The translations under genes were made by a program, and so were the position numbers. Under the pieces are notes generated by a model. It was not told where the DNA came from. It was given only the letters and a program-made list of their open reading frames with translations, and did no database searches. 51,284 nucleotides of DNA from an uncultured Spirochaetaceae bacterium (lineage in GTDB: Bacteria; Spirochaetota; Spirochaetia; Sphaerochaetales; Sphaerochaetaceae): NCBI GenBank assembly GCA_900321635.1, contig ONWV01000004.1, positions 1 to 51,284 of the forward strand, given 5' to 3'. Position 1 is the stretch's first letter. Each line of letters begins with the position of its first letter. Positions 41,295 to 49,599 of this stretch are shown here, in pieces.

Positions 41295-42269
41295 TTGGAA
41301 AGCCTTCTTCATCCCGTCTCAATAGGTAACGTAGAACTCCCGTGCAATCTTTTTCTGGCACCGCTTGCAGGCTACACCGACAAGGTCTTCCGCAGCATCT
41401 GCCTGAAAAAGGGCGCAGCTTTGGCCTATACCGAGATGGTCTCGAGCGAGGGCGTTGCCAGGGACAACGACAAGACAGTCATTCTCATGGAGCGCGGCGA
41501 GGGCGAAACAAACCTTGCCGTTCAGCTTTTCATGCCTGATGCCGATACCGCAAAGCGCTCTTTGGAGAACGTGATGAAGTATAATCCGGCTCTGATAGAC
41601 ATAAACTGCGGCTGTCCTGTTCCCAAGGTTGTCAAAACCGGGGCCGGTAGCGCCCTTTTGAAAAGGCCAGAGACAATCTACGAGATAGTGAAGGCCATCA
41701 AGGACAATGTCCCTGTCCCTGTTACGGTGAAAATCAGAACAGGCTGGGACACAAACTGCCTGAACTATCTGGATGTTGCAGAAAAAGCCTTCAGCGCAGG
41801 GGCCTCGGCCTTGTGCATGCATGCACGAACCAAGAGCCAGCTGTACATGCCAACGGCTCACTGGAATCTTCTGAAGGACCTGAAGGACCATTTCAAAGAC
41901 AAGATCATCATAGGGTCGGGGGACCTTTTTACGGCTGAAGACGGGGTCAGGATGCTGAAAGAAACGGGTGTTGATGCAATCTCATATGCCCGCGGCGCCA
42001 TAGGAAATCCGTTCATATTCGAGCAGACAAAGGCCCTTTTGGAGGGAAGGCCGCAGAGGACGGTCTCAACACAGGAAAAGGTGGATGCAATAATGGTCCA
42101 TCTGAACGGCCTTGTGGACTTTCTCGGGGAAAAAACAGCCTGCAGGGAAATGAGAAAGCACGTGTGTGCATATCTTAAGGGTATTCCCAACAGCGCAAAG
42201 GTCCGCCAAAGTGTGACAAGCGCCCTGACGGTGGACCAGTACAGGGAAGCTCTGGCTCTTCTTAGTTAA
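41295..42269 (+). CDS. tRNA-dihydrouridine synthase (Dus family)
   Basis: 324-aa FMN enzyme that reduces uridines in tRNA. Features: LFLAPLAGYTDKVFRSICLK at the flavin site, the catalytic-cysteine block INCGCPVPKVVKTGAGSALL, VKIRTGWD, CMHARTKSQLY, and GSGDLFTAEDGVRM with ARGAIGNPFIF. The best match is DusB. It starts at TTG 41295; AGAGG upstream supports it and the family N-terminus follows directly. The stop shares the palindrome TTAA with the stop of the convergent gene, so the two genes overlap by 4 bases. Confidence 0.9.
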   Translation: MESLLHPVSIGNVELPCNLFLAPLAGYTDKVFRSICLKKGAALAYTEMVSSEGVARDNDKTVILMERGEGETNLAVQLFMPDADTAKRSLENVMKYNPALIDINCGCPVPKVVKTGAGSALLKRPETIYEIVKAIKDNVPVPVTVKIRTGWDTNCLNYLDVAEKAFSAGASALCMHARTKSQLYMPTAHWNLLKDLKDHFKDKIIIGSGDLFTAEDGVRMLKETGVDAISYARGAIGNPFIFEQTKALLEGRPQRTVSTQEKVDAIMVHLNGLVDFLGEKTACREMRKHVCAYLKGIPNSAKVRQSVTSALTVDQYREALALLS

Positions 42270-43348
42270 GAAAAATAGTCTAGCTGCATGGCAAGCTTTG
42301 CCCAGTCGCGGTAGCCTATGCAGTCAATGCCGTCGCGGCTGTAAGTGACATCACCGAGGTATAGAATAAGTGTTTTAGAGCCATTAGATGCATGTTTTGC
42401 TTTTTTTGTGCAAAACTCGGTGACCTCGATATTCGGCTCTATGAACAGAGAATAGCCTTCCTTCCATGAGGCTTCAAAGTCACAATCCGAACCAAGATTA
42501 AGATCGCTTTCCAAAGCCTTGGCAAAACGGCCGCGTAAAAGCTCGTTTACGGCAAAGGTTCTGACAATGCGGCCCTTGTGCGGGCTCAGAATCAGATCTT
42601 CCTTTTTTGTAATCCCAAGCAGGCTGCACAAAAGACCGCTGTCGCAGAAGTAAAACACCTTGCCGACGTCTTTATCTGTAATTGTCCTTATGATGTAGTT
42701 CTTCTGTAAAACAGAAAGCCATGTTTTTGCAGTGGGGGCGGAGACTCCTGTCTTTTTTGCCAGGCTGTTTACGGAAAACATTTCTCCGCTTTCTGTTGCG
42801 CAGGCTTTCATGAATGAGAGAAAGAGAGAGAGATTCGAGACATTGATATGGGCTCTGATATTCTTTTCAAGAATCATCTTTGTGACAGAATCGGGGTCTG
42901 ACAGAAGCTGGCCGCTGAGGATGATCTGAAACGGATTTGCAATGGGAGCGTTGCTGCGCGATAAATCTTCAACCGTAAGACCCAGGACATTGCATGTGGC
43001 GATTCGGTTGTCCGGGTCCTGAAAATCAAGATTCGTTGTGGTTGTGGCTATGTATTTTCCAGGAGTGAAGCCCCATTTGCCAACATGGTAGATTACAGCA
43101 TCGATCATCTGGGGAAGCTTATCTATGGCGTGGATAATTACCCCGTCCGGAAAGGCCATGAGAAATGTTCTGGGAGATTCCTTTGCAAGTCTCAGAGTCT
43201 GAGGATTCTCAAGGTCTATGTAGTTTTTTGAAGGCATCAGACGACGCGCCATGGATTCAAGGCCGCACCCGACAGGCCCGGAAAGAAGAACCACTGGGTA
43301 CTTCTGGCACAGAGATTTCAGAGTGTGAAAAGCTGAAGTTTCTACCAT
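42266..43348 (-). CDS. DUF4143/AAA_14-type protein with degenerate ATPase motifs
   Basis: 360 aa with the layout of the AAA_14-DUF4143 family: an N-terminal P-loop-like region, a winged helix (SVNSLAKKTGVSAPTAKTWL, then SVLQKNYIIRTI) and a C-terminal nuclease-like domain (RIVRTFAVNELLRGRF). The expected Walker A GPRQVGKTTL reads SGPVGCGLESMARRL, without the essential Lys-Thr/Ser. The Walker B equivalent is IHAIDKLPQM rather than LDEIQ. ATP hydrolysis is therefore doubtful. The ATG at 43348 has no clear Shine-Dalgarno sequence and abuts a 7-bp inverted repeat (43349-43365). It is a single gene, of unknown role. Confidence 0.75.
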   Translation of the reverse strand: MVETSAFHTLKSLCQKYPVVLLSGPVGCGLESMARRLMPSKNYIDLENPQTLRLAKESPRTFLMAFPDGVIIHAIDKLPQMIDAVIYHVGKWGFTPGKYIATTTTNLDFQDPDNRIATCNVLGLTVEDLSRSNAPIANPFQIILSGQLLSDPDSVTKMILEKNIRAHINVSNLSLFLSFMKACATESGEMFSVNSLAKKTGVSAPTAKTWLSVLQKNYIIRTITDKDVGKVFYFCDSGLLCSLLGITKKEDLILSPHKGRIVRTFAVNELLRGRFAKALESDLNLGSDCDFEASWKEGYSLFIEPNIEVTEFCTKKAKHASNGSKTLILYLGDVTYSRDGIDCIGYRDWAKLAMQLDYFS

Positions 43349-43427
43349 CTTTAATGCTATTAAAGTTTAGAATTGTAAAATTGTAAAGTTTAAAATCTCA
43401 ATTATTTAAAGTATTACCCCATTTTCG

Positions 43428-43456
43428 TTGACAGCAGCCCTCCATGCCCGAATACT
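43428..43456 (+). promoter_or_regulatory. Promoter of the amino-sugar operon
   Basis: A consensus -35 TTGACA (43428-43433), a 17-nt spacer and AATACT (43451-43456, 4/6). The leader is short, with GGGGGA before the ATG at 43478. Confidence 0.6.
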
Positions 43457-43477
43457 GAAGCTGTTTGGGGGATTTTC

Positions 43478-44140
43478 ATGATCAGAACAATCGATTTGTT
43501 TGATTTGGATCACAGCATGGCCAAAGAGTATCTGAAGGGCTTTGAGTATCCGTGGCAGGCTCTTGGCGGAATCAAGGACCTGATTATTCAGCTGGGAAAG
43601 AAGCTTGACCCAAAGGAGTATGACGAAGTTTCTCCATCAGTGTGGGTTCACAAAAGCGCAAAAGTTTTCAGCTCCGCATATCTCGGATCTCCGTGCATCG
43701 TGGGTCCTGAGACAGAAGTGCGCCACTGCGCCTTTGTCAGAGGCAGCGCCCTTATCGGAGCAGGTTGTGTTATAGGAAACTCTGTTGAGCTTAAGAATGT
43801 GATCATCTTCGACAACTGTGAGGTTCCTCACTACAACTATGTCGGAGACAGCATCCTGGGATTTCATGCCCACATGGGAGCGGGATCCATCACATCGAAC
43901 ATCAAGGCAGACAAGAAGAATATCGTGGTTCATGCAGAGTCTGAGATTCCTACGGGACTTCGCAAGATGGGAGCCATGCTCGGAGACTATGCGGACATAG
44001 GATGCAACAGCGTCCTTAATCCAGGCACTGTCATAGGACGGCACACCAATGTGTATCCGCTTTCATGCGTAAGGGGCGTTGTTCCTGAGCACAGCATCTA
44101 CAAGAACCCGAAAAACATAGTAAGAAAAGAAGAGAGGTGA
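43478..44140 (+). CDS. Left-handed beta-helix sugar acyltransferase (GlmU C-terminal-like)
   Basis: 220 aa. About 55 N-terminal residues are followed by a hexapeptide-repeat beta helix. The HYNYVGDSILGFHAHMGAGS block, with TSNIKADKKN after it, corresponds to the acetyltransferase active site of GlmU (YVGDA...IGAGT). The uridyltransferase domain is absent. Probable role: N-acetylation of glucosamine-1-phosphate or a related sugar. The next genes, glmM and nagB, make and consume glucosamine phosphates and overlap in a coupled operon. Confidence 0.82.
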   Translation: MIRTIDLFDLDHSMAKEYLKGFEYPWQALGGIKDLIIQLGKKLDPKEYDEVSPSVWVHKSAKVFSSAYLGSPCIVGPETEVRHCAFVRGSALIGAGCVIGNSVELKNVIIFDNCEVPHYNYVGDSILGFHAHMGAGSITSNIKADKKNIVVHAESEIPTGLRKMGAMLGDYADIGCNSVLNPGTVIGRHTNVYPLSCVRGVVPEHSIYKNPKNIVRKEER

Positions 44141-44142
44141 AT

Positions 44143-45528
44143 ATGGGAAGATATTTCGGAACAGACGGATTCAGAGGCGAGTCAAATGTGACTCTCACAG
44201 CCGATCATGCATATAAGGTAGGCCGCTTTCTTGGCTGGTATTACAGAAGCCTTAGAGAGCAGCGCGGAGATTCGGAAAGCCCGAAGATCGTCATAGGAAA
44301 AGATACCAGAAGATCCTGCTACATGTTCGAGTACATGCTTGCAGGCGGTATTGTCGCTTCCGGTGCCGATGTTTACCTGATGCACGTCACCACCACCCCG
44401 TCTGTGGCCTATATCGCACATGTCGATGACTTTGACTGCGGCATCATGATCACCGCATCCCACAATCCGTACTACGACAACGGAATCAAGATCATCAACA
44501 AATACGGCGAGAAGATGGAAGACTCCGTACTGGACCTCTGCGAGGACTACATCGACGGCAAGCTTGAGTGCTTCGGTCAGAAATGGGAGGAAATCCCGTT
44601 CGCATCGCGCCATGACATCGGCGAGATGGTGGACTATGTCTCAGGCAGAAACCGCTACATCGGATATCTGATTTCACTTTGTAAGTATTCTTTCAGAGGT
44701 CTGAATGTCGGCCTAGACTGTGCAAACGGAACCACATGGAACATCGCCAAGGCCGTCTTTGACGCCCTGGGTGCCAAGACCTATGTCATCAACGCCGACC
44801 CGAACGGATTCAACATCAATGAGAACGCCGGGTCCACACACATCGGCGGTCTTCAGAAGCTTGTTCTGGACAAGAACCTGGATGTAGGTTTTGCCTTTGA
44901 CGGTGATGCCGACAGATGCCTTGCGGTGGACGAAAAGGGTAATGTCGTAGACGGCGACCACATCCTCTACATCTATGGAAAATACATGAAGGAGAGGGGA
45001 AAGCTCCTCAACAACACCGTGGTTGTAACCGTCATGTCCAACTTCGGTTTCTTTAAAGCCATGGAGGAAGAGGGCATTGAGACCGTCAAGACCAAGGTCG
45101 GTGACAAATATGTTCACGACTACATGGTCGAGCACGGCTGCAGAATCGGCGGCGAGCAGAGCGGTCACATCATCTTCTCAAAGTATGCCTCAACAGGTGA
45201 CGGAATCCTTACTGCATTGAAGGTCATGGAGGTCATGCTTGCCAAGAAGAAGAAACTCAGCGAGCTTGCAAGCGGCATGAAGTCCTATCCTCAGGTTCTT
45301 GAGAACATCAAAGTCAAGGATAAGCCCACTACAATAAGTGACGAGGACGTTCAGAACGCCGTGAAGAAAGTCGAGGAAAAACTCGGTGACTCGGGAAGGA
45401 TTCTTGTCCGTGAGAGTGGAACAGAGCCCCTTATCCGTGTTATGGTTGAGGCAAAGACAGAGGACATCTGCAGACAGTATGTCGGCGAGGTCATTTCAGT
45501 AATCCGCAAGAAGGGGTACGCAGTATGA
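44143..45528 (+). CDS. glmM: Phosphoglucosamine mutase
   Basis: 461-aa alpha-D-phosphohexomutase that interconverts GlcN-6-P and GlcN-1-P. The four loops are intact: the phosphoserine in [14 protein letters not shown], metal-binding [11 protein letters not shown], sugar-binding [10 protein letters not shown] and phosphate-binding [12 protein letters not shown]. The N-terminus [11 protein letters not shown] is typical. The ATG at 44143 is preceded by AGAGAGG; a GTG two codons earlier is less likely. The stop overlaps nagB (ATGA). Confidence 0.92.
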
Positions 45529-46313
45529 GAGTAATCATCCAGGAGAACTACGAGAAAATGAGCAGATGGGCTGCAGAGCACATCGCTAAAGCAATCAATT
45601 CCCACAAGGAAGCACGTCCGTTCGTCCTTGGCCTGCCCACAGGGTCATCGCCACTAGGAGTCTACAAGAAGCTCATCGAGATGAACAAAGCAGGTAAGGT
45701 TTCCTTCAAGAACGTCGTGACCTTCAATATGGATGAGTATGTCGGACTTGATCATGACCACGACCAGAGCTACTGGTATTTCATGCATGACAACTTCTTC
45801 AATCATATCGACCTTCCCGCACAGAACATCAACATGCTCAACGGCATGGCCAAAGATCCTGAGAAAGAGTGCAGGGACTATGAGAAGAAAATCGCCGCAA
45901 TGGGCGGAATAGACCTTTTCATGGGCGGAATCGGAGTTGACGGGCACATTGCCTTTAACGAGCCGTTTACCTCGCTTTCTTCCAGAACCGGCCTCAGAAC
46001 CCTGACCACCGACACAAGAATCGTCAACTCACGCTTCTTCGGAAACGACCCGTCAAAGGTTCCGGCCTATGCTCTTTCTGTCGGAGTCGGAACTGTCTTT
46101 GATTCAAAGGAAGTTCTTGTTCTCATCAACGGCCACAACAAGGCCCGTGCTCTTGCCCATACCGTAGAGGGCGGAGTCAGCCAGAAGTGGACCTGCAGCG
46201 CTCTTCAGATGCACAACAACGCAATAATCGCATGTGACGAGGATGCCTGCGGAGAGCTTAAGGTCGACACCTACAGATACTTCAAGGACGTTGAGAAAGC
46301 CGAAAGACTATAA
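45525..46313 (+). CDS. nagB: Glucosamine-6-phosphate deaminase
   Basis: 262 aa, normal length. It interconverts GlcN-6-P with fructose-6-P and ammonia. Landmarks: [19 protein letters not shown] (phosphate loop), FNMDEYVGL (catalytic Asp), and [13 protein letters not shown] with the Asp/His/Glu relay. Coupled to glmM rather than to nagA. This suggests it may work in the biosynthetic direction and supply GlcN-6-P for the mutase, but that is inference. It converges on the YfcC-like gene with 6 bases between stops. Confidence 0.94.
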
Positions 46314-46319
46314 CAGCCT

Positions 46320-47741
46320 TCAATAGCCTGCGCCTATGCCCAGGACTATGAATGATAGTACCAAAATAAAAGTGGCAATGAAGAGGGGGAGACCCCTCTT
46401 CATCCATTTGAAGTAGTCGACTTCAATCATGGAAAGCGATATCAGCAGCACGGGCGAGGTGGGGAAGATCACATTGGTGTAACCGTCTCCCAGGGTGTAG
46501 AGCAGAACCAGCATCTGGCGGCTAAGACCTGTGTTGACCATCGCAAGAAGACCCATAACAAGAATTGCCTTTGCCGTGGATGATGAAATGAAGAACTCCA
46601 GAACAAGGACGATCAGATAGATTGAAAGAGCCACGGTAACCAGGCTGTGACCGTCTATCATCACGTTGATCTGATGGACTATGGTGGGCAGGATTCCGCC
46701 TTTTTCGAATACGAACTTAACCGATGCGGCAAAGGCAATGAAGGCAAGAGTAGGCAAGGCACCCAGAATTCCGCTCAGAAAACTTCTTAATACTTTCCTG
46801 GGCTTGCCGCAGGCGATGATGCCTGCGATGATTCCGAAGATCAGGAAATAAGAAGCCAGAATCACAACGGCAAGGCCTCTTACCGAAGGAAGAAGAGATA
46901 CCGCTATTATCAGAACCAGAGCCGTCAGAAGAAAGACGCAGTATGTTTTCCTGATGCGGCTCTCGTTTTCCATTTCCTCCTTTGTTCCGTCCGCCAGATT
47001 CGAGGCTGCTATCTCAAGATCATGTTCATATGTCGGACTGCTTGACGGGTCTTTCCCGATTTTTCTGACATGCCGGAAAACAAAGAGCATCAGAACGCCG
47101 AACATTACGGCAAATATCAGAAGACGGAACCAGATATTTTCAATAGGATTCGCCCCGATGATCTGGGAAGCGAGAAGTACGGTGAACGGGTTGGTCACAG
47201 CCCCTGCGAAACCGAATCCGCATGCTATGGTGCAGCACAGAAAGCCTGAAAACGAATCAAGACCAACCGAAAGGCATAGCGATGTCACAATGGGAAGCAT
47301 GGTAAGCATCTCTTCGAAAAGGCCCAGAAACGAACCGAAGCAGTAGAAAAGAAGCGAAACCAGAACCAGAAGAAGAGTCCTGCGCTCTCTGAATCTGTGT
47401 GCAACCACATCAACGATGGATCTTATTCCGCCCGTGTCGTTCATCACCTGGAATGCGGCGGAGATGAAGAAAAGAAACAGCGACAAGGCAATCAGCGACG
47501 CCCCGTCTGATGAAAAGAAAACCAGAACCGGTGCGAAGAGTCCTTTGACCAGGGAGATTCCGCTCTGGTTGCTTCTGGGTATGTATTCAAGATAGTTCAC
47601 ACTTCCGTCCGGAAGAAGTCCGAAGTCTCCCTTGGGCACTATGAAGGTCATTATGATGGAGAAAAGAAGAAGCCCTACAAGAAGTATGCTGACATTTATG
47701 AATGTCTTTTTTGATATGTTGATCAGGGTTTTCCTTTTCAT
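46320..47741 (-). CDS. YfcC-like transporter (C4-dicarboxylate/basic amino-acid carrier type)
   Basis: 473 aa with about 11-12 transmembrane helices. Family blocks: PKGDFGLLPDGS near the N-terminus, FGSFLGLFEEMLTMLPI, FGFAGAVTNPFTVLLASQIIG, and GDGYTNVIFPTSPVLLISLS near the C-terminus. The YfcC family includes proteins annotated as arginine/ornithine antiporters or C4-dicarboxylate carriers; the substrate is unknown. GGAGAAAG precedes the ATG. It overlaps the zinc-ribbon gene by ATGA. Confidence 0.82.
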   Translation of the reverse strand: MKRKTLINISKKTFINVSILLVGLLLFSIIMTFIVPKGDFGLLPDGSVNYLEYIPRSNQSGISLVKGLFAPVLVFFSSDGASLIALSLFLFFISAAFQVMNDTGGIRSIVDVVAHRFRERRTLLLVLVSLLFYCFGSFLGLFEEMLTMLPIVTSLCLSVGLDSFSGFLCCTIACGFGFAGAVTNPFTVLLASQIIGANPIENIWFRLLIFAVMFGVLMLFVFRHVRKIGKDPSSSPTYEHDLEIAASNLADGTKEEMENESRIRKTYCVFLLTALVLIIAVSLLPSVRGLAVVILASYFLIFGIIAGIIACGKPRKVLRSFLSGILGALPTLAFIAFAASVKFVFEKGGILPTIVHQINVMIDGHSLVTVALSIYLIVLVLEFFISSSTAKAILVMGLLAMVNTGLSRQMLVLLYTLGDGYTNVIFPTSPVLLISLSMIEVDYFKWMKRGLPLFIATFILVLSFIVLGIGAGY

Positions 47742-48289
47742 TTTGTCTTTCTCCTTTCAGCGAACATGTCCACAAGAAGTGCCCAGCGCGCCGTCTGCTG
47801 GGGATTCTCCACAGGGTAGAAATAATAGAGATTGCCGTTGTGGTAGACCTCGAACTCCGTTCCGCAAGAGAATGCCAGAGCCGGCATGTTCTCCATTCTG
47901 ACCAGGAATTCGGTGGTGTCGGATTTATAGCTCAGCCCCAGGGGATTGAGTGTGCACTCTCCGAGTTCCTTCCTTATGACCTTGCCGTTTTCCGCAAACA
48001 CCTTGGTCCGTACCTTCGCGTTCAGATCCAGGTTGTCCAGATCCGCGGCCTCAAGTGCCTTGATTTTGTCATAGTATCCGGAAATGGTTGAGGGCTCTGT
48101 GGTGAAATGATAGTTTTCGCCGATGGAATGTTTTGATCCGCATGAAGTGCAGACCAGGTCGTTTCCGATGCCCTTTGTTGTGTAAAGGCTCCCGCAGTCG
48201 ATACAGCGGTAGAGGATGTTTTCAAGTCCCTTTGCCTTGTCTTTCTGAGGGAAAAGGCGGTTCGGATTCTCCGAGGATGATCTTTTCAA
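47738..48289 (-). CDS. Zinc-ribbon domain protein; probable out-of-frame C-terminal part of the PlsC gene
   Basis: 183 codons in the +1 frame relative to the preceding acyltransferase, overlapping it by 68 bases. It has a zinc ribbon (YRCIDCGSLY, then CTSCGSKHSIG), followed by a beta-rich domain ending in YYFYPVENPQQTARWALLVD. In related acyltransferases this zinc-ribbon module follows the PlsC domain in one polypeptide. The only in-frame start here is a TTG at 48289 with GAGGAG one base away, too close to work well. A frameshift, a sequencing error in the GGGAAAAGG run, or a +1 recoding event is more likely than an independent gene. Confidence 0.65.
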   Translation of the reverse strand: MKRSSSENPNRLFPQKDKAKGLENILYRCIDCGSLYTTKGIGNDLVCTSCGSKHSIGENYHFTTEPSTISGYYDKIKALEAADLDNLDLNAKVRTKVFAENGKVIRKELGECTLNPLGLSYKSDTTEFLVRMENMPALAFSCGTEFEVYHNGNLYYFYPVENPQQTARWALLVDMFAERRKTK

Positions 48290-49571
48290 GCTCCTCGGCG
48301 CTCATGTTCTGCATCTCGTCCTTCTTGATGACACGCTGAACCTTGACCTTGATGTCGGACATAAAGCGCTTTTTGCGCCACTTGGGATTTGCAAGATAAG
48401 CCCCGGTGATTTTGACAAGAACAAGGTCTACGCCGAGTTTCTTGTAAAGTGCCGCACCCGGCAGAAAGGTGTTCGACCTTCCGTCCGGAGAAAGCCTTCC
48501 TTCAGGAAACAGCACCACGGGGTAGCCTCTCTTGATGTTTCTCATAATGGAAAGAGGGGTTTTCATCTCCGTTACGAAAAGCTTCTTGGGGATTATGGAG
48601 CATCCCAGCGGAACATGTCTGGCTATGGGGCGGGTGCAGTAATACTCGTTCACGATGAACGAAGGATTCTTGGGATGGTTGAGCTTGTACAGATACAGAA
48701 AGTCAAAGAAGGACTCGTGGTTTGAAAGCATGATGTACGGTGACGAGGCCCTATCAAGAATGGCGTCGTCGATTTCCACCTTCTGTTTCTTGCCGTGAAT
48801 CATATTGAAGACTGAAATCACCGCCCCGTATACAGGGGATTCGATCTCCTTTGAATTGCCGCTTAAGAAGAACCGCTTGATGAAGATGGCGATTATGAAA
48901 AAAAGCAGGGCGGCCAGAAGTATGATGATCAGCACCAGCAACCAAAGCGGCAGGGCTTGTCCTACAAAGGCCCTTCCTGCTGCTCCCATCAGGTTTGACA
49001 CCACAATGGATGGAACAACTCCCGTTGCGACTGTGAATATGTATTTTCTGTAGGGCAGCTTTGTGCTGCTTCCGTAGTAGCAGATGGCTCCGAACGGAAT
49101 AATCGGCATGAAGAAAAGCAGATAAAGCAGGACCATCGTATTTTTATTCCGTGCGCCCTCGGAGATTCTGTCTATAATCTTCTTGCGCCTCTGATAGGCC
49201 TCGGACTGGATGTTGAAGACTCTTACAAGAATGAAGATGATGGTGGCGCCAAGACATACTCCTATGTCACATAAGGCAAGCGCGATGGGGAAGGGATAGC
49301 TCAGGCCGCTTGAGATCTGGATGAACTCGGCAGGGATGAAGATTACGACCATCTGTAGGGCTTCGACCAGGGAGACAGCGGCAAAGCCGAGAACCCCTTT
49401 TCCCCTTAAAAGTGCCGTGGCACCGTCAATGTCGTTCTGCGACTGCAATTTGATGAAAGGAATCAGAATATCCTTCAGAAAGAAGGAAAAAAGACAGATG
49501 ACGGAGATGAGAATGATGGCGATGGGAAGTTTTCCTATGCTTTTGCCTTCGTTTTTCTTTCTGTCGTCCAT
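48222..49571 (-). CDS. VTT (DedA-like) membrane domain fused to PlsC-type acyltransferase
   Basis: 449 aa. Residues about 15-230 form a VTT/SNARE-associated membrane domain (VEALQMVVIFIPAEFIQISS, FFMPIIPFGAICYYGSSTKL). About 270-430 is a lysophospholipid acyltransferase: catalytic LSNHESFFDFLYLY (HX4D variant NHESFFD), GCSIIPKK, and VLFPEGRLSPDG. It probably acylates 1-acyl-glycerol-3-phosphate for membrane lipid synthesis. The ATG at 49571 is chosen because AAAGGAG is five bases upstream; an in-frame start at 49628 lies over the promoter. Its end overlaps a zinc-ribbon reading frame that probably belonged to the same protein. Confidence 0.85.
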   Translation of the reverse strand: MDDRKKNEGKSIGKLPIAIILISVICLFSFFLKDILIPFIKLQSQNDIDGATALLRGKGVLGFAAVSLVEALQMVVIFIPAEFIQISSGLSYPFPIALALCDIGVCLGATIIFILVRVFNIQSEAYQRRKKIIDRISEGARNKNTMVLLYLLFFMPIIPFGAICYYGSSTKLPYRKYIFTVATGVVPSIVVSNLMGAAGRAFVGQALPLWLLVLIIILLAALLFFIIAIFIKRFFLSGNSKEIESPVYGAVISVFNMIHGKKQKVEIDDAILDRASSPYIMLSNHESFFDFLYLYKLNHPKNPSFIVNEYYCTRPIARHVPLGCSIIPKKLFVTEMKTPLSIMRNIKRGYPVVLFPEGRLSPDGRSNTFLPGAALYKKLGVDLVLVKITGAYLANPKWRKKRFMSDIKVKVQRVIKKDEMQNMSAEELEKIILGESEPPFPSERQGKGT

Positions 49572-49599
49572 CAGGACTCCTTTACCAATATTCCCGAAA

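Follow-up and report, generated by a model that had tools for sequence, protein, structure and literature searches.

A 23-base deletion probably splits one VTT-PlsC-zinc ribbon gene in an uncultured Spirochaetaceae bacterium

On the minus strand of a 51,284-nucleotide stretch of DNA from an uncultured Spirochaetaceae bacterium (the whole stretch analyzed, hereafter the window), a frame encoding a PlsC acyltransferase runs into another that encodes a zinc ribbon, raising the question of whether the locus holds two genes, one gene read with a ribosomal frameshift, or one gene that has been broken. The list of open reading frames placed the stop of the PlsC frame at TGA 48224-48222 and the zinc-ribbon frame at 48289..47738, with a TTG start and in +1 relative to the PlsC frame. 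These coordinates and frames confirmed two points of a preliminary description of the DNA, namely that the frames overlap out of register by 68 bases and that the zinc ribbon continues in the +1 frame after PlsC. The PlsC frame probably starts with the ATG at 49571. The features that we assign to the locus are collected in Table 1.

Table 1. Coordinates and basis of the features assigned to the locus
Feature	Position in window	Strand	Basis
5' part of broken gene: VTT (DedA-like) and PlsC acyltransferase	48222..49571	-	Pfam, ORF, alignment with intact relative
Site of 23 missing bases relative to intact relative	48276..48277	-	Alignment
3' remnant, +1 frame: zinc ribbon with its four Cys, and PH-like domain at the C-terminus	47738..48276	-	Homology, start-codon scan, fold match
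68-base out-of-frame overlap, by-product of deletion	48222..48289	-	ORFs, alignment
DcuC-family carrier gene; start overlaps end of broken gene	46320..47741	-	Pfam DcuC 1.3e-51

The preliminary description held that PlsC and the zinc ribbon normally form one chain, and had asked for the junction to be compared in relatives. Every orthologue showed a single continuous frame there. A search of 139 family genomes found the gene in 8 and found it split only in the genome of the window; the other seven orthologues were all single open frames of 560-632 residues, the shortest of which (G003, row L054) begins at a contig end. For named genomes, we kept the best 80 of 117 confirmed stretches, and in all 80 loci one frame extended across the region corresponding to residues 300-560 of the intact relative described below. 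Three further PlsC-zinc-ribbon paralogues in the window's genome are likewise single chains, in frames of 408-412 residues. The one-chain arrangement therefore holds for the 80 loci, the seven family orthologues and the three paralogues from the same genome.

A near-identical gene from the same genus located the difference. On G010:C3 (JAGBRG010000115.1), this gene forms one continuous frame of 622 residues, and a protein with 100% identity to it is encoded at named-genome locus L046 (JAGBRG010000115.1, 'Spirochaetales bacterium isolate RGIG9374 Yak_Abomasum'). When positions 45521-49585 of the window were aligned with G010:C3, we observed 49 mismatches and a single gap, of 23 bases, in 4,088 aligned columns. 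The gap falls in codon phase 2, has no microhomology at its ends, does not lie at a homopolymer and changes the frame, 23 not being a multiple of three. Apart from this indel, the intact homologue could be aligned base for base, the pattern that defines an indel pseudogene. The missing codons are part of an IxxTLYNDAS-like segment, located where the last PlsC helix ends and present in every orthologue examined, and the 3' remnant still matches residues 439-622 of the relative at 95% identity. PlsC homology ends at 48277 and homology in the zinc-ribbon frame begins at 48276, so that the overlap by homology is zero bases; beyond 48277, the last ~17 codons of the PlsC frame are out-of-frame sequence. 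The length of the 68-base overlap thus carries no information, because the overlap merely reaches from a TTG in the wrong frame to whichever stop came first after the shift. A short TCGGA/TCCGA inverted repeat adjoins the break; a hairpin-driven deletion was considered and rejected, as the relative's junction, folded as DNA, did no better than shuffles.

The preliminary description had proposed +1 slippage at a CCC-T, by which programmed ribosomal frameshifting would fuse both frames into a full-length protein. The CCT TTT CCC TCA that it cited is indeed present inside the overlap, with the CCC followed by T in the PlsC frame. However, among the best 80 of 117 confirmed stretches, all of them single-frame, none showed a frame transition and no orthologue needs a frameshift; CCCT occurred at the exact homologous place in only two of these 80 (L046 and L125) and anywhere in the 21-base stretch in five. 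The intact relative reads these bases as TTC CCT CAG, with CCC-T straddling two codons of ordinary inherited coding sequence. Moreover, CCCT occurs 183 times on the minus strand of the window, and a single copy in the overlap is unremarkable because ~0.24 would be expected per 68 bases. Folding the matching 141-base stretch of the relative as DNA gave a z of 0.27, not better than shuffles. In its direction the shift resembles the prfB-type +1 programmed frameshift, where, in the available text of PMC12421855, the premature stop belongs to the conserved frameshift motif. Our locus departs from the prfB type, however, in that its slip site carries TCA after the CCC instead of a premature stop, the slip motif is not conserved, and no orthologue has the shift. 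We therefore regard programmed slippage as extremely improbable. The other cause put forward, a miscount in the GGGAAAAGG run, failed on the same comparison: this run, the CCC-T and the GAGGAG before the TTG were all identical in the intact relative, where they are in-frame coding sequence, and the real difference is the 23 missing bases, ~25 bases upstream of CCC-T. Of the earlier reading, what stands is that the two frames are parts of one gene; slippage and miscounting as its cause do not.

Alternatively, the zinc-ribbon/PH-like part could be a gene of its own, translated alone from TTG 48289 or coupled to the upstream stop. A GAGGAG does lie ahead of this TTG, but the spacing between them is one base. 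As reported earlier, our start-codon scan found this TTG, directly behind GAGGAGC, to be the sole ATG, GTG or TTG in that frame after the preceding stop and before the zinc ribbon. The intact relative, however, has the GAGGAGCTTGAA stretch unchanged and reads it as EELE within the chain, and the zinc ribbon lies within a PlsC chain in all of the best 80 of 117 loci. On the relative's in-chain sequence and the scan, we rejected independent initiation at TTG 48289; a two-gene arrangement is very unlikely.

Comparison with a near-identical relative shows 23 missing bases, the orthologues examined all keep an uninterrupted frame, and no plausible internal start exists. We reasoned that a 23-base deletion in the PlsC-zinc-ribbon linker probably disrupted a single gene, which encodes a membrane acyltransferase with VTT, PlsC, zinc ribbon and PH-like domains. 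The locus is an ordinary case of gene breakage or mis-assembly, not one of programmed ribosomal frameshifting, and its annotation should be corrected: the two frames are one disrupted gene, neither a recoding case nor a gene pair. In the available text of Antonov et al. (2013; PMC3711429), frame transitions in a single member are ascribed to indels or sequencing errors. Our locus resembles the singleton frameshift genes and indel pseudogenes in that text, in that the transition is confined to one genome and the intact homologues give one chain; it differs from those singleton classes in that a near-identical relative pins the cause to 23 missing bases.

To see what the break removes, we examined the domains of both parts. 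The 5' part matched the VTT domain (PF09335, VTT_dom; 49.2 bits against a cut-off of 33.9, 9.1e-13) and PlsC (PF01553, Acyltransferase; 36.3 bits against a curated cut-off of 23, 5.6e-09) in Pfam. Upstream of the break, the PlsC frame contains NHESFFD and FPEGR, which we take to represent NHxxxxD and EGR, the PlsC/LPLAT catalytic motifs. The second frame carries two CxxC pairs, CIDC and CTSC, whose four cysteines were invariant in 52 of 52 aligned relatives; zinc-ribbon families in Pfam gave matches below cut-off only. The intact relative, modeled from 52 aligned sequences (mean pLDDT 82.5, pTM 0.67), showed a helical membrane part followed by PlsC, zinc-ribbon and C-terminal domains. Its residues 228-451 resemble the 1-acyl-sn-glycerol-3-phosphate acyltransferase PlsC of Thermotoga maritima (5kym; Z 18.4, rmsd 3.3, 207 aligned residues), from which the protein differs in that PlsC is fused to an N-terminal VTT domain and to a C-terminal zinc ribbon and PH-like domain; residues ~523-622 matched PH-like folds (Z 9-10, ~90 aligned residues, rmsd ~3). 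The 50 matches listed in the fold search included no DedA structure, which has no bearing on the VTT domain. A single-sequence fold of the remnant alone was poor (pLDDT 34) and was set aside. In the model, the break lies inside the last PlsC helix (residues 429-440 of the relative), and therefore the catalytic motifs stay, while, barring a rescue of decoding, the protein loses the zinc ribbon and the PH-like domain. Ribosomes would be expected to terminate at TGA 48222, ~17 codons past the shift, and the predicted product is a truncated VTT-PlsC protein with NHxxxxD and FPEGR, lacking the zinc ribbon and the PH-like domain.

The same picture would arise in a single draft genome if the 23 bases had been dropped in contig building, the organism's gene being intact. 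A single draft assembly (92 contigs, 80.6% complete, 3.3% contamination) shows the break, all orthologues examined are intact, and the 3' remnant is undegraded, still open and with all four cysteines kept; the deletion is therefore either very recent or not real. In the available text of Antonov et al. (2013), sequencing error, and not a true indel, is the expected cause of BLASTp-validated singletons, but a real indel is held more likely for singleton frameshifts close to the 3' end, and the break here sits ~70% along the gene. Furthermore, a gap of 23 bases without microhomology at its ends is unlike a homopolymer error, and the locus is single-copy in its genome; a search for a second intact copy elsewhere in that genome found none. 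Overall, we regard an assembly or consensus error as unlikely, and the deletion is probably a recent, real mutation in this lineage.

We also compared substitutions with G010. Nonsynonymous to synonymous differences numbered 7:3 before the break and 4:0 in the remnant, too few to show relaxed constraint, and 4:4 in dcuC, 2:24 in nagB and 8.5:58.5 in the upstream phosphohexomutase gene. The dcuC-plsC block as a whole is little diverged from G010, so the remnant cannot be singled out. Divergence from G010 was ~7% across 41417-45529, ~3% in nagB and <1% in the dcuC-plsC block, and this block (46313-49585, compared with L035) had an unusually high share of amino-acid-changing differences. On sequence comparison, the block looks as if it had recently been exchanged.

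The truncated enzyme may still work. That the deletion is both real and tolerated, with the zinc-ribbon/PH-like part split off and a working VTT-PlsC enzyme left behind, is a tentative and rather unlikely reading; if true, the locus would be a natural test of the role of the C-terminal part in a four-domain acyltransferase of rumen Spirochaetales and Clostridia.

The intact VTT-PlsC-zinc ribbon-PH-like protein is a more interesting object than the break. Literature listings yielded no description of a VTT/DedA-PlsC fusion. By record title, the intact protein occurs in Spirochaetales and Clostridia, mostly in rumen or gut assemblies; titles of 6 of the best 80 of 117 records name Spirochaetales, and the others are Clostridia or other Bacillota groups. 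This patchy spread suggests horizontal transfer. A DcuC relative lies near the gene in 71 of the best 80 of 117 loci, and the intact architecture beside a DcuC-family carrier may merit study as an enzyme that might combine transport and acylation in one chain. Among the first 20 loci, 16 listed matches had a DcuC-family gene starting 0-179 bases past the match.

The neighborhood differs from G010 in one further respect. At 45521-45529 in the window, the phosphohexomutase and nagB genes meet with a four-base overlap and glmS is missing there, whereas G010 carries a 619-residue glmS-like gene between them. No glmS scored above the family cut-off in the one genome of the window (80.6% complete), and all 14 of 14 controls were positive. 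Across the genus, 3 of the 11 genomes searched contained a match to the G010 glmS-like protein at E<=1e-60.
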